Shown: positions 58,477 through 63,472 of the stretch, one piece after another | How the letters are laid out: each line of letters begins with the position of its first letter | Numbering within the stretch: position 1 is the stretch's first letter | Assembly: GCF_041321155.1 (NCBI RefSeq) | Contig: NZ_JBGGWB010000001.1 | Coordinates: 558,001-622,000 of the forward strand | Direction: 5' to 3' | Source of the DNA: Sphingomonas sp. IW22 | GTDB lineage: Bacteria; Pseudomonadota; Alphaproteobacteria; Sphingomonadales; Sphingomonadaceae | DNA length: 64,000 nt | Notes under the pieces: model-generated | What the model saw: only the letters and a program-made list of their open reading frames with translations | Database searches by the model: none | Told to the model about the DNA's origin: nothing | Made by a program: the position numbers and the translations under genes

Positions 58477-60921
58477 TCATGCGGCATGCGAGGCAAGGGG
58501 CAGTTCACCTTCAGCCTTCCTCTCGAAAAGGCGCGCGGCCAGCGCGGGCCCTGCAATCGGTTTTTCGATCAATGTCACACGGTTGGACCGGGCGAGCCAT
58601 TGAAGGACAGCTTCTGTCGGCTGTTTCCACAAAATGAAGGTCGCGACCGACCATTCGGCCGCTGCGCCGGAAAGCGTGGCAAGCGCCAGCAAACGCGAAT
58701 CGTCATCGTCACCGATGGACGCGAAATCGGCCAAAATCCGCGTCGCGCCGTCCATCGCGGCGATCGCCGCTTCGATCGTGGTGACTGCCACGACCTCTCC
58801 CACGCGAGGCGCCAGCAGCGTGCGCAACATGCTGCGCGCGATCGGGTTCGCCTCCAGCAGGATCAGCGCATCGTCGTTCCGCGCGGTCGGCAAATCCGCG
58901 GGCGCCTGTGCCACAATCAGGGGCAGGCGAACCGTGAACACGGCGCCGGTGCCCACATCGCTCGCCAAAGAAATGTCGCCACCCAGTGCCCGCGCCAGAT
59001 TGCGGCAGATGGTAAGGCCCAGCCCGGTGCCGCCATATTGCCGAGTCGTGGTCGAATCGGCCTGCTTGAACGACTCGAAGATTTCGCCGTGCTTGTGAGT
59101 CGGAATGCCGATGCCGGTATCGCGAACCGAAATGCTGAAGTGCCGGCCATCCTCCTCAACCATGGCACTCAGCCCGATCGACCCCGATTCGGTGAACTTC
59201 AGTGCATTGGACAGCAGGTTCGACACCAGCTGGCGCACACGGCCAGCATCGGTTTCGATCCAGCGGGGGGCCGATTCCAGCGCGCATTCGAACGTCAGCC
59301 CCTTGGCGCGGACCTGTTCCTCCCACATGCGCGCGACGTCGGTCAGGGCAGCACGCAGGTCGGCGGGTTCCGGCGCGACCGTCAGATTGCCATTCTCCAT
59401 CTTGGCCACATCAAGGATGTCGTCGACCAACGCCCGCATCGTCAGGCCCGCCCCGTGCACGACCTGAACCCGATCACGTTGCGCGAGCGGCAAGGCGCGG
59501 TCGGCCAGCATCACCTGGGTCATGCCGAGAATGCCATTCAGGGGGGTGCGAATCTCGTGGCTGGTCGTCGCAAGGAATTCGGTCTTGGCAGCGAGCGCCT
59601 TGGCGAGCGCATGGTTGCTCCGCTCCAGTTCGACATTGGCCGCGGCAACCTGATTGCGGCTGCGGCGGATGGTCACCAAGCCAAAGCTGAGCAAGCCGAC
59701 GATCACCGCCGCACCACCCGCCACCGCGAACAACAGGGTGCGCTGGAAGCGCGCGCGTGAACGTTCAAGTTCCACACTGGCGCTCAGTTCATCGGCCTTG
59801 AGCCGGGCGATCCGAAGTTCCTGATTCGCGAAATCGAACTGCGCCGCCATCAGCGCGGTGTTGGTCGACGCCGCCAGTCGCGTCTCTTCGTCGGTTAGCC
59901 GCCGGAGCGCCTCAAGATGCGCCAGCGCGCGCGCGTCGTCGCCAGTTGTCTTGTAAAGGTCGACCGCCGCGACATGCGCCTGCCGAAACGCCGCATTCGT
60001 TTCATCAGGATCGACATTCGTAAAGACCGCTTCGAGCCATCGGCGAGCTTCGGCGATATTGCCACGCGCAAGCGCCAGTCGCGCTGCGACGGTTTCAACC
60101 TGCAGACGCGCCGCTCGACCGCCTGGTCTGGCCCGCATCGACAATGCCTGACTAAGATTGCGCTGCGCAATATCCAGCTTGCCAAGCTCAATGTTCGCGT
60201 TGACTATATTTCCCAGGATCCGTGCCTGCAGCGGTATCAGGTTTCGCGCGCGAGCAATGCGAAGCGCTCGGTCATACTCGGTGATCGCGTCGGCGTAACG
60301 CTCCTGACCATAAAGCCCGGTAGCCCGGTTATTGTAGAGCGCCAGAGCGAGCATATCGTCGCTGTCATAGGCGTCTTCAGCCTGCTGGAAATATCGGTCA
60401 GCGCGTGCGAAATCGCGTCCGTCAATGTAAAGGTTTGCAATGCTTTGCAGGGCGATCGCCTGTCCGCGTCGGTCGCCTGCCGCAATGAAGGCGCGGTGCG
60501 CCTGCTGGTATGTTCGCAACGCATCGGCGGCCCGCACCTGTTGGGCATAGATGCTACCACGCGCGAGCAGGATGTCGCCATAAAGCTTCGGCTTGCCTGC
60601 CAAACGCGCCAAAAGGGCACCACTTTCGGTGAGCGGCAGGGCCGCACCTCCATGGCCATTGCGAACCAGTGCCTCGCTACCTAACCAGCGCGCACTGGCA
60701 AGTGCCTCGCGCCGAATTCTGGTATCGCCAATCGACAACGCCTGTCGCTCGGCTAGAGCAGCCTGAGCGAACGCGGCGTTCGTATCGGCAAGCATCAAGT
60801 CGCGGGATCGGCCCAGCGTGGTTGCGACGGGTTCGGGAATGGGGCTGCCGGAGTCGGCATATGCCCCCGCAAGCGCAACCAAGGCGCAGAGGCCGAACGC
60901 AAATCGGGCAAGGGGTCTCAT
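58477..60921 (-). CDS. TPR-sensor hybrid histidine kinase with degenerate receiver
   Basis: An 814-residue sensor kinase (ATG 60921; a GTG at 60930 is an alternative). N-terminal signal/anchor (about 4-22), a periplasmic TPR-rich region (about 30-390, [24 protein letters not shown] repeats), a membrane segment near 396-418, then HisKA with [18 protein letters not shown] (His about 455), HATPase_c (N of LLSNALKF, G1 DTGIGIP, G2 GGTGLGL), and a C-terminal receiver-like domain. In the latter the first acidic pair is replaced (LLEAN) while the Asp (ILADF) and Lys (IEKPI) remain. Downstream of the EAL gene, upstream of the receiver. Confidence 0.92.
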
Positions 60922-60977
60922 CAGCCACACATCCCCACCCTGGCACGCGAAGGTTTATTTCGCGTCAACGAAACCGC

Positions 60978-62303
60978 TCAGGCACGCTTCCAGAAACTTT
61001 CCGGCCGACCGAAACTGGGCCGCGTAACGGCCGTCGCGCTCAAATGACGTTCCTCGTCGAGGAACTGCAGAAGCGCCTGGATCGCGATTGGGCGGCTGAT
61101 CAGGAAGCCCTGCGCCACGTCACAACCCATCACCCCCAACAACGCCAGCGCGGCAGGCGTTTCGACACCCTCCGCCGTGACTTCCATGTCAAGCGCATGG
61201 GCCAAGTCGATCGTCGAGCGAACGATCAGCGGGTCACGGTTGCTGCTGGTCAGTTCCAGCACAAACATCTTGTCGATCTTCAGCTCGCGCGCAGGCAATT
61301 GCTTGAGATAGGCAAGGCTCGACAACCCGGCTCCATAATCGTCTATCGCCAGGGTGATGCCGATCTCGTCAAACATGCGCAGATGCCGGATCGCACTCTC
61401 AGGATCGCGAATTACAGCCGTTTCGGTGATTTCGAAGCCGATCCTGACGGACACGCCGTCCATCATCCGGCACACTTCTTCAACGAAATCGCTATCTGCT
61501 AGCAGCAAGCCAGAGATGTTGACGAAAACCGGGATATCATGGCCGCCCGCCGCCAGCAGCAACTGATCGATCATCGCCTGCCGGATGGTCCAGAGCGTCA
61601 GGGCGCGTATCTTGTTCGATTCCTCGGCCAGCGCGATGAATTCGCCCGGCATGATCAACCCGCGTTCGGGATGCTGCCAGCGCACCAGCGCCTCGACGCT
61701 GACGATCTCCTGCCGGCGCAGATGCACCTTCGGCTGGTACTGAAGAAACACTTCCCCATTGCCGATGGCGACGGACAGGTCCCGCATCAACGTCATGCGG
61801 TCATAACAAATCTGCGCCCGGCTTAGGTCGTGGACAACCGGCTTCTCTTCAGCGCGAGCTTCCTCGAGTGCCGCTTCGGCACCCTCGGCGAAGCGGACCT
61901 CGTCACATTCATGACTGGGAATGGCGGCACCCGCCAACATCAGTTCGACCGCATGCCCTTCCCCGTCAACTTCAAATGGCGCCGCGAATCGAGCGGCGAT
62001 GACGTCGATCGTCGCATCCGCATCGGTGGGCAAAGCGCCTTCGAATGCGATTTCAATCAAGGCGCGGCCGACACAGATCACTTGGGCGTTCGGCAGTAAC
62101 TCGCGCACGCTGGCCGCGATATCGTTGATCAGCATATCGGCCCGCCGACATCCCAGAACGCGACGCAAGGCGGGGAAATTGCAGACCTCGGCCAGGATCA
62201 TCAGCCGCCATGGCGCCAGCGCGCGCTGCACCAAACATGGCGTCGCCGACGCACGCGGCGCGTCATTAGGAATCGGATCGAGCGAAGGCACATCCAGCGA
62301 CAT
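60978..62303 (-). CDS. EAL-domain c-di-GMP phosphodiesterase
   Basis: A 441-residue protein (ATG 62303; an in-frame TTG at 62312 is possible, neither has a strong ribosome site). The N-terminal half (about 30-165) resembles a degenerate GGDEF-type fold without a GGDEF motif. The C-terminal EAL domain (about 170-435) keeps the catalytic set: EAL/VRW (residue about 205), NIS, EITETA (two Glu), IDDYGAG (two Asp), KIDK and AEGVET. It should hydrolyse c-di-GMP. It is first in a minus-strand cassette with the hybrid kinase (56-base gap) and receiver. A CtrA-type palindrome lies 99 bases upstream. Confidence 0.9.
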   Translation of the reverse strand: MSLDVPSLDPIPNDAPRASATPCLVQRALAPWRLMILAEVCNFPALRRVLGCRRADMLINDIAASVRELLPNAQVICVGRALIEIAFEGALPTDADATIDVIAARFAAPFEVDGEGHAVELMLAGAAIPSHECDEVRFAEGAEAALEEARAEEKPVVHDLSRAQICYDRMTLMRDLSVAIGNGEVFLQYQPKVHLRRQEIVSVEALVRWQHPERGLIMPGEFIALAEESNKIRALTLWTIRQAMIDQLLLAAGGHDIPVFVNISGLLLADSDFVEEVCRMMDGVSVRIGFEITETAVIRDPESAIRHLRMFDEIGITLAIDDYGAGLSSLAYLKQLPARELKIDKMFVLELTSSNRDPLIVRSTIDLAHALDMEVTAEGVETPAALALLGVMGCDVAQGFLISRPIAIQALLQFLDEERHLSATAVTRPSFGRPESFWKRA

Positions 62304-62401
62304 TGTGTCCAATCGCTAATCGCAAGCTCTTTCGAAGCGGTTAACTGCGCCTTTCCGGCACAACGGATTATCGCAAGGCAGCGACCTGCATCTTGTATCG
62401 A

Positions 62402-62420
62402 GGTTAATTTCGAATTAACC
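62402..62420. promoter_or_regulatory. Full CtrA-type binding site (palindrome)
   Basis: GGTTAATTTCGAATTAACC reads TTAA-N7-TTAAC, the full CtrA consensus, on the plus strand, and equally on the minus strand because it is an 8-base-pair inverted repeat with a 3-base spacer. The plus-strand continuation TTAACCAT also matches the 8-base CtrA half-site of Caulobacter. It lies 40 bases before the small ORF start and 99 bases before the EAL start, and is the only such site I saw in this window. Confidence 0.75.
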
Positions 62421-62459
62421 ATCTCTTCCGAGGCTTTGTTGCCTCTCAGGAGAAAAAAT

Positions 62460-62513
62460 ATGTTCGACGTCCTGTTCCGGGAAACGTACAACGAGACGAT
62501 CCGTCCGTTCTGA
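62460..62513 (+). CDS. Candidate 17-residue small protein or leader peptide
   Basis: An ATG at 62460 opens a 17-codon frame, MFDVLFRETYNETIRPF, ending in TGA at 62513. The ribosome site AGGAG at 62448-62452 with a 7-base A-rich spacer is one of the strongest in the window. Upstream are a small GAGGC/GCCTC hairpin (62430-62445) and the CtrA-type box; downstream a 13-base-pair hairpin and a terminator. No plus-strand gene follows before the terminator, so it is not an attenuator leader of a visible operon. It is too short to assign to a family. Confidence 0.55.
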   Translation: MFDVLFRETYNETIRPF

Positions 62514-62522
62514 TTGCCACGG

Positions 62523-62558
62523 TCCGGATTGGCCGCGCGAACGCTCGGCCAATCCGGA
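62523..62558 (+). ncRNA. Stable hairpin, possible small-RNA structure
   Basis: Thirteen perfect base pairs (62523-62535 with 62546-62558) and a 10-base loop, 10 bases after the 17-codon ORF. There is no T run directly after it, so it is not itself the terminator; it may stabilise the transcript or be part of a structured RNA. Confidence 0.5.
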
Positions 62559-62580
62559 TCTCTAGTGACGCACGAAGACG

Positions 62581-62607
62581 AGCCCCCGCCCTGCGGGTGG
62601 CTTTTTT
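62581..62607 (+). terminator. Rho-independent terminator of the small unit
   Basis: AGCC-CCCGC pairs with GCGGG-GGCT around a 3-base loop with one bulged T, followed by TTTTTT (62602-62607). It ends the plus-strand small transcript; the minus-strand orientation lacks a T run. Confidence 0.8.
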
Positions 62608-62634: not shown

Positions 62635-63408
62635 TCAGATCCCGTCGGAGCCGACTGCGTAGCCGGCAACCTTCAGCCGTTCGGTCAGATCACTAAGGCA
62701 CCGATCGACCGCGTCGGGATCGGCCCCGCGCACGACGAAATTGGCACCCACCCGCCCTTCGCGGAAAAAGGGATAGCTGCCGATCGCGACAGCCGCATCG
62801 CAGCTCTCCCCGCGATGCTCCCGCTCAACCGCGCGCAGCAAATCTGCCACTTCGCTTTCCGGCACCCAGCAACCGACCGTGCGGCTGACAAGTGGCCGCC
62901 CCCCTTCCAGCGTGCCGGTCAGTGCTTCCAGCATGCCAGCGGTGATGTGGGGAACGCCAGCGAGAATGAAGATATTGCCGTGCCGGATTCCCGGCGCGCC
63001 CGACATGCGATTCGGGATCAGGCCCGCCCCCTGCGGCACGCGCGCCATGCGAAGCCGCGCGTCGGTCAGGCCGCCGCGCGTTTCATAATGCGCTTCCAGC
63101 ATGGCGCGCGCCTCAGGGTGGACGACTACGGGCACGCCCAGCCCCTCGGCAATCGCATCGACAGTGATGTCGTCATGCGTCGGGCCGATCCCGCCGGTGG
63201 TGAAGCAATAGTCATATCGCGTGCGAAGCGTGTTCACCGCTTCGACAATGGCGGACGTCCGGTCGGCCACCATCCGCACCTCGGACAAGCGAATCCCCTG
63301 GACGTTCAGCCACACCGCCAACTGGGCGACATTCTTGTCCTGTGTCCGGCCGGACAGGATCTCATCGCCGATAACCGCAAGGCCGGCGGTCCAGATGCGT
63401 TCGCTCAT
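62635..63408 (-). CDS. Molybdopterin-binding/CinA N-terminal-like protein
   Basis: A 257-residue protein of the MoCF_biosynth family (COG1058). It shows AGLAVIGDEILSGRTQDKN, FTTGGIGPTHDD and IFILAGVPHI. In many bacteria this is the N-terminal half of CinA (ADP-ribose pyrophosphatase/competence-damage protein); here the C-terminal half is the separate pncC gene at 48914. The start ATG at 63408 (or 63420) is uncertain. It diverges from map across 64 bases. Confidence 0.87.
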   Translation of the reverse strand: MSERIWTAGLAVIGDEILSGRTQDKNVAQLAVWLNVQGIRLSEVRMVADRTSAIVEAVNTLRTRYDYCFTTGGIGPTHDDITVDAIAEGLGVPVVVHPEARAMLEAHYETRGGLTDARLRMARVPQGAGLIPNRMSGAPGIRHGNIFILAGVPHITAGMLEALTGTLEGGRPLVSRTVGCWVPESEVADLLRAVEREHRGESCDAAVAIGSYPFFREGRVGANFVVRGADPDAVDRCLSDLTERLKVAGYAVGSDGI

Positions 63409-63472
63409 GGCAAGGGGCATAGCGTGCGCCCCGGCCCTCGCAAAGTCCCGGCCAAAAGGCTATGTCACGGCG

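Follow-up and report, generated by a model that had tools for sequence, protein, structure and literature searches.

A putative CtrA-gated micropeptide gene conserved in Sphingomonas opposite an EAL-domain gene

The unit and its surroundings

The window, by which we mean the whole stretch of 64,000 nucleotides from Sphingomonas sp. IW22 that was analyzed, contains near its right end a short plus-strand unit that is transcriptionally divergent from a gene for an EAL-domain protein. The features of this region, in the coordinates of the window, are as follows.

60978..62312, minus strand: divergent EAL-domain gene, cyclic-di-GMP phosphodiesterase-like (PF00563, E 5e-65), starting at 62312 (TTG) or 62303 (ATG)
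62393-62607, plus strand: whole unit, comprising promoter-like hexamers and box, 5' hairpin, AGGAG, 17-codon ORF, 3' hairpin and terminator
62393..62398, plus strand: -35-like hexamer TTGTAT, with the TTG/TAA spacing kept across copies
62404..62418, plus strand: CtrA-type box TTAA-N7-TTAA, between and over the promoter-like hexamers, seen in GGTTAATTTCGAATTAACC
62416..62421, plus strand: -10-like hexamer TAACCA, overlapping the second TTAA at a 17-nt spacer from the -35-like hexamer (column profile of 111 distinct copies)
62430..62445, plus strand: 5' hairpin GAGGC/GCCTC, directly before the ribosome-binding site (RNA fold)
62448..62452, plus strand: ribosome-binding site AGGAG (sequence)
62460..62513, plus strand: 17-codon ORF, MFDVLFRETYNETIRPF and stop, with ATG at 62460 and TGA at 62511-62513; in-frame pN/pS 0.39
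62521..62560, plus strand: 3' hairpin with a 15-pair stem that includes one G-U pair, its first paired base 8 nt past the stop codon (RNA fold)
62585..62607, plus strand: terminator-like hairpin and T run, taken as an intrinsic terminator (sequence)

A first-pass annotation of this DNA had listed the CtrA-type box, the ribosome-binding site, the 17-residue ORF and the terminator, and each of these could be located in the sequence; the hairpin that it gave as 13 base pairs is also present, its 13 pairs falling within the 15-pair stem at 62521-62560. The -35-like TTGTAT, the -10-like TAACCA and the 5' hairpin are parts that it did not contain. Its statement that no plus-strand gene follows the unit was borne out over 960 bases counted from the stop codon. 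A long frame comes next at 62635-63420, on the minus strand, and not until 63473 does a candidate gene begin on the plus strand, which we take to encode methionine aminopeptidase. On the other side, the minus strand carries a gene for a TPR-containing histidine kinase (58477-60930; Pfam HisKA, HATPase_c and TPR) beside the EAL gene.

The unit stands out from its genomic background in several respects. Its RNA has a more stable predicted fold than shuffled sequences of the same dinucleotide content (z -4.2), and the motif TTAA-N7-TTAAC occurs at only one palindromic place in the 64-kb window, the unit's box, where 0.01 would be expected. A survey of both strands of 464 kb (the window and 400 kb of the same genome) yielded 39 ORFs of 15-21 codons that are preceded by a ribosome-binding site; among these, both the box and an ending in any residue, Pro, an aromatic or aliphatic residue and stop were found only at the unit's ORF. 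No description of the element was found in the open-access literature searched, a search that leaves most subscription journals outside.

Distribution and synteny in Sphingomonas

We collected 122 copies of the unit, the window's included, which encode 103 distinct peptides and all come from Sphingomonas. The sphingomonad element suggested in the first-pass annotation is a genus-wide one. Loci L001, L002, L004, L051-L054 and L058 were dropped as repeats of other loci, and L003, L015, L017 and L023-L043 have no unit and were not counted; a scan of L105 and L111 likewise found none. L102, L112, L115 and L116 carry the unit and stand outside the 122 and all derived counts, and L275, L276, L277 and L278 also carry units outside the 122. 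The 122 copies are not all independent, because L161 and L118, which share a peptide, are probably one genome.

When 61 genomes, G000 among them, were searched with the DNA, the unit was recovered elsewhere only in G027, where the peptide is kept and the hairpin has a different sequence; the match in G060 was to the region of a single hairpin arm, on the opposite strand. The translated search proposed in the first-pass annotation was run with the 17 residues. At an E limit of 10 it gave matches in 13 of 121 genomes of the genus, and 11 of these, the window's included, have the unit. A 16-row profile matched 87 of 295 genus genomes at E up to 0.1, and a 51-row profile matched 227 of the 295 at E up to 0.5 with weak matches included, about 191 of them at 0.01 or below. 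Beyond the genus, an order-wide profile of 11 peptides matched 285 of 296 genomes at E up to 1, with all matches of E 0.0045 or better in the same genus; among eight translations of its weak matches, L029 and L042 show the stretch ALFGEKYG(D/E)EVR of a long protein, presumably alanyl-tRNA synthetase. In the family, the 51-row profile matched 3 of 199 genomes, all of the same genus. These searches of the order (296 genomes) and the family (199 genomes) thus gave no trusted match outside the genus, and a diverged unit could escape them. A mobile element was set aside as an explanation, since the window's 221-base unit, the one copy queried, had no match in plasmid and phage collections.

An EAL match lies divergently upstream of 78 of the 78 copies found by their peptide, and 283 of 295 genus genomes contain such a match when the E limit is set at 1e-60. 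Of the 12 that do not, 10 do not figure among the matches of the 51-row profile either, and the others are G484 and G510; in G510, the contig breaks off on the unit's EAL side. We also approached the locus from the EAL gene, with no peptide required. Starting with the best EAL matches, we took 40 upstream regions from genomes without a real peptide hit of the 16-row profile (G528 and G452 were skipped, with no recorded reason), and 39 were evaluable because L137 stopped at a contig end. All 39 hold a copy of the unit, with a ribosome-binding site before its short ORF. In 36 the short ORF was found by a script that accepted ATG only, and in L139, L142 and L146 it was found by eye with a GTG start. 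The script made no demand for Pro, yet every one of the 39 ORFs has the ending Pro-x-stop, with Pro-Trp in 35. The first-pass annotation had named two outcomes that would speak against a peptide, broken codons beside a kept hairpin or nothing conserved at all, and neither was seen in these regions, which all hold an intact short ORF.

A further 25 EAL matches were scanned upstream, of which 5 gave additional copies (L157-L161, including Sphingomonas naasensis and strains Leaf339 and Leaf343) and 20 were without the unit, among them L174, an uncultured Sphingomonas with a partial match of 42%. In G517, contig 45 carries a second copy of the unit (L277:1100-1150, and L278) with an identical peptide and DNA that is 95% identical over 99 nt. 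This extra copy has another 3' hairpin, and no EAL match was found in the 3.5 kb fetched around L277, of which 2.35 kb extend towards the EAL side. The paralogue could separate the function of the peptide from that of the EAL protein.

Coding selection, hairpins and competing explanations

To assess selection on the ORF, we compared 44 disjoint close pairs of copies. The in-frame ratio given above reflects 122.5 synonymous changes on 533 sites and 154.5 nonsynonymous changes on 1741 sites, with changes at the three codon positions numbering 67/49/161, whereas pN/pS in the other two frames was 1.34 and 1.97 (binomial p 2e-14). The changes are not synonymous only, a pattern that the first-pass annotation had suggested looking for; its question of frameshifts was answered by a 35-row alignment in which all gaps inside the ORF are three bases long. 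The ORF therefore combines the properties of a small-protein gene, namely purifying selection in one frame, a start codon and a ribosome-binding site (GGGAGA in 110 of 122 copies). Because the frame is under purifying selection, a peptide product, one of the possibilities named in the first-pass annotation, is strongly favoured, and an element that acts as RNA only is made unlikely by the same test. A 17-codon ORF can thus be supported as coding by comparison alone.

The peptides are 16-21 residues long and consist of a hydrophobic N-terminal part followed by a C-terminal [IL]-[RK]-P-[W/F]. The penultimate residue is Pro in all 103 distinct peptides, some of which were found with a pattern that required it, although the 39 chosen by EAL were not. 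It is preceded by Arg in 91 of the 103 and by Lys in 7, and it is followed by a terminal Trp (49), Phe (35), Ile (8), Leu (6), Val (3) or Tyr (2). The stop codon is TAA in 73 of the 122 copies and TGA in 49, and TAG does not occur.

The ORF is flanked by structures that are kept as well. A helix of 9 bp or more was found within 80 nt of the stop codon in 113 of 122 copies, compared to 8.7% of shuffles, and the longest helix begins at a median of 10 nt past the stop. Covariation was examined in the FAF clade with 35 of 36 distinct rows (L152 was excluded as outside the clade); against a structure derived from folds of the same sequences, both partners change in 14 of 27 pairs, versus 5.7 when shuffled and 6-10 when slid, and in the inner 3' helix they do so in all 8 pairs. 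The 3' hairpin covaries, then, in the one clade tested. Of two other groups that were folded, MYD gave no consensus stem and MLK proved to be mixed with rows of another clade. The 5' hairpin was judged across clades because its helix is nearly invariant in the FAF clade: stems of 6 bp or more are present in 74 of 111 distinct regions, compared to 16.5% of mononucleotide shuffles, and stems of 5 bp or more comprise 82 different arm pairs. A T run follows within 260 nt of the stop codon in 89 of 122 copies, versus 18.4 in shuffles, which makes the terminator a frequent but not a constant part of the unit.

Since the hairpins are conserved as structure, an added role of the RNA is possible. A dual-function or mainly structural small RNA, in which the RNA with its two hairpins would be the regulator and the peptide would be secondary, fits hairpins that persist while their sequence changes and a terminator that so often follows. 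We nevertheless consider it unlikely, because selection is confined to one reading frame, and the arm sequences differ between clades with no common base-pairing seed seen by eye. Nor did the window contain any Rfam family above its gathering score; the best match, RcsR1 at 62519-62607 (17.1 bits versus a cut-off of 60), is probably due to chance.

The end of the ORF also bears on an element that pauses termination, in which the penultimate Pro would delay termination as the ribosome stands against the hairpin, and would thereby control the mRNA or its ribosomes. The invariant Pro, the stop codon usage without TAG and the distance of the helix from the stop speak for such an element, but there is no constant downstream gene to control and selection spans the whole ORF too, which makes this reading improbable.

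A short ORF, a hairpin and a terminator in series are likewise what a leader peptide for a transcription attenuator would show. In the 122 fetched loci, a Ugd-like gene (presumably UDP-glucose-dehydrogenase-like) lies on the unit's strand in at least 53, a CysD-like gene in at least 16 and a CinA-like gene in at least 3. We scored the Ugd-like and CysD-like neighbours by presence and strand in the fetched flank only, and these counts, with the CinA-like one, are lower bounds because the flanks of L117-L156 are short. In the window, however, the 960 bases mentioned above are free of plus-strand candidates and an antisense gene comes next; the longest frames after the unit in L158-L161 are on the minus strand and unrelated; and the unit looks alike whichever neighbour is downstream. 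Because the downstream genes differ and the same regulated gene was not found after the unit, a general attenuator for a Ugd-like or CysD-like gene was rejected, and we give attenuation very little credence. The Ugd-like gene on the unit's strand, for example in L008 and L009, is by itself a possible link to exopolysaccharide.

Last, a type I toxin of a toxin-antitoxin pair, although suggested by the very short product and its hydrophobic N-terminal part in some clades, is hardly credible given a hydrophobic stretch that is short by eye, a charged C-terminal part, a fixed syntenic place within the genus and the absence of plasmid and phage matches to the window's unit.

The putative promoter, the CtrA box and a proposed function

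Upstream of the 5' hairpin, a profile of 111 distinct copies anchored on the box showed TTG 11 nt before the box and TAAC.A at its end. The spacing TTG-N20-TAA, which resembles the -35/-10 pair of a sigma70 promoter, occurs in 108 of 116 distinct upstream regions, while 12 other spacings occur in at most 13 each. Among the 108, the in-register box has 8/8 bases in 88 copies, 7/8 in 15 and 6/8 in 5. Of the 8 copies without TTG-N20-TAA, 6 have the box slid towards a TTG (L129, L131, L140, L143, L148 and L151), and in five of these (not L140) a TAT, read by eye, stands 16-17 nt after the -35-like hexamer. In L012, L016, L047, L048 and L159, one TTAA half has decayed (6/8 bases left) with the TTG and TAA spacing intact, so CtrA control is not universal. 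For comparison, bases 1-400000 of contig 1 of G000, the window's genome, contain TTAA-N7-TTAA at one palindromic place, without a TTG, which shows how rare the box is there; as a single control box, it is uninformative on how general the TTG is.

We infer that the hexamers are a promoter and that the box lies inside it. A gene for CtrA is present in the genome (421 bits to NF045991, against a cut-off of 350), so that on sequence the unit has the two attributes of a CtrA-regulon member, a box in the promoter region and the regulator itself in the genome. Counted from the predicted start site, the box would begin near -24 and overlap the -10-like hexamer. In Caulobacter, according to a published report (PMC4287350), full boxes that start near -35 (-39 in one example) go with activation, and sites over the -10 (-14 in one example), mostly half sites, go with repression. 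On balance we prefer the reading in which CtrA represses the putative promoter, while activation is a less likely alternative that still deserves some weight; it is kept because the -10-like TAACnA is not canonical, the repressing examples are for the most part half sites, and -24 lies between -39 and -14.

Altogether, the evidence probably reflects a stand-alone micropeptide gene that is gated by CtrA and whose selected peptide acts on a protein. According to this explanation, a sigma70-type promoter (TTG..., 17-nt spacer, TAACnA) would produce a short mRNA that starts near its 5' hairpin and carries a strong ribosome-binding site, the frame for a peptide of 16-21 residues, a stable hairpin just past the stop codon and, in many species, a terminator. 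Because the box sits inside the promoter, phosphorylated CtrA would most likely block RNA polymerase, and expression would be expected in cells or phases with little active CtrA. The peptide most likely binds a protein through its C-terminus. Synteny suggests the product of the divergent EAL gene, or the pathway of that protein, as the first candidate target.

More tentatively, the units may be genus-wide CtrA-gated micropeptides that use [IL]RP[W/F] as a C-terminal recognition motif, bind the EAL phosphodiesterase next to them or its pathway and modulate it, and so link CtrA to cyclic-di-GMP turnover; we regard this extension as possible and rather doubtful. The unit is a strongly constrained peptide gene below the standard annotation size, spread through a widely studied environmental genus; its position links it to a cyclic-di-GMP gene, and its putative promoter links it to the regulator CtrA. 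If the extension is true, whether a 17-residue peptide carries information between CtrA and cyclic-di-GMP can be tested directly.

Three known systems are close enough for comparison. The leader peptide peTrpL of Sinorhizobium meliloti is an alphaproteobacterial leader peptide reported to act in trans (PMC7298713). The likeness is only in how it works: peTrpL stems from a transcription attenuator, whereas no constant gene lies downstream of the Sphingomonas unit, which is equipped with a box and promoter-like hexamers of its own. CcnA of Caulobacter is described as a CtrA-regulated RNA of 182 nt that needs CtrA for its expression, is noncoding and lies at the replication origin (PMC8959179), while the Sphingomonas unit has a selected ORF and adjoins an EAL gene. 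With the CtrA-regulated promoters of Caulobacter (PMC4287350), the unit shares a TTAA-N7-TTAA box in its putative promoter, but, if the predicted start is right, this box lies between the activating and the repressing positions.
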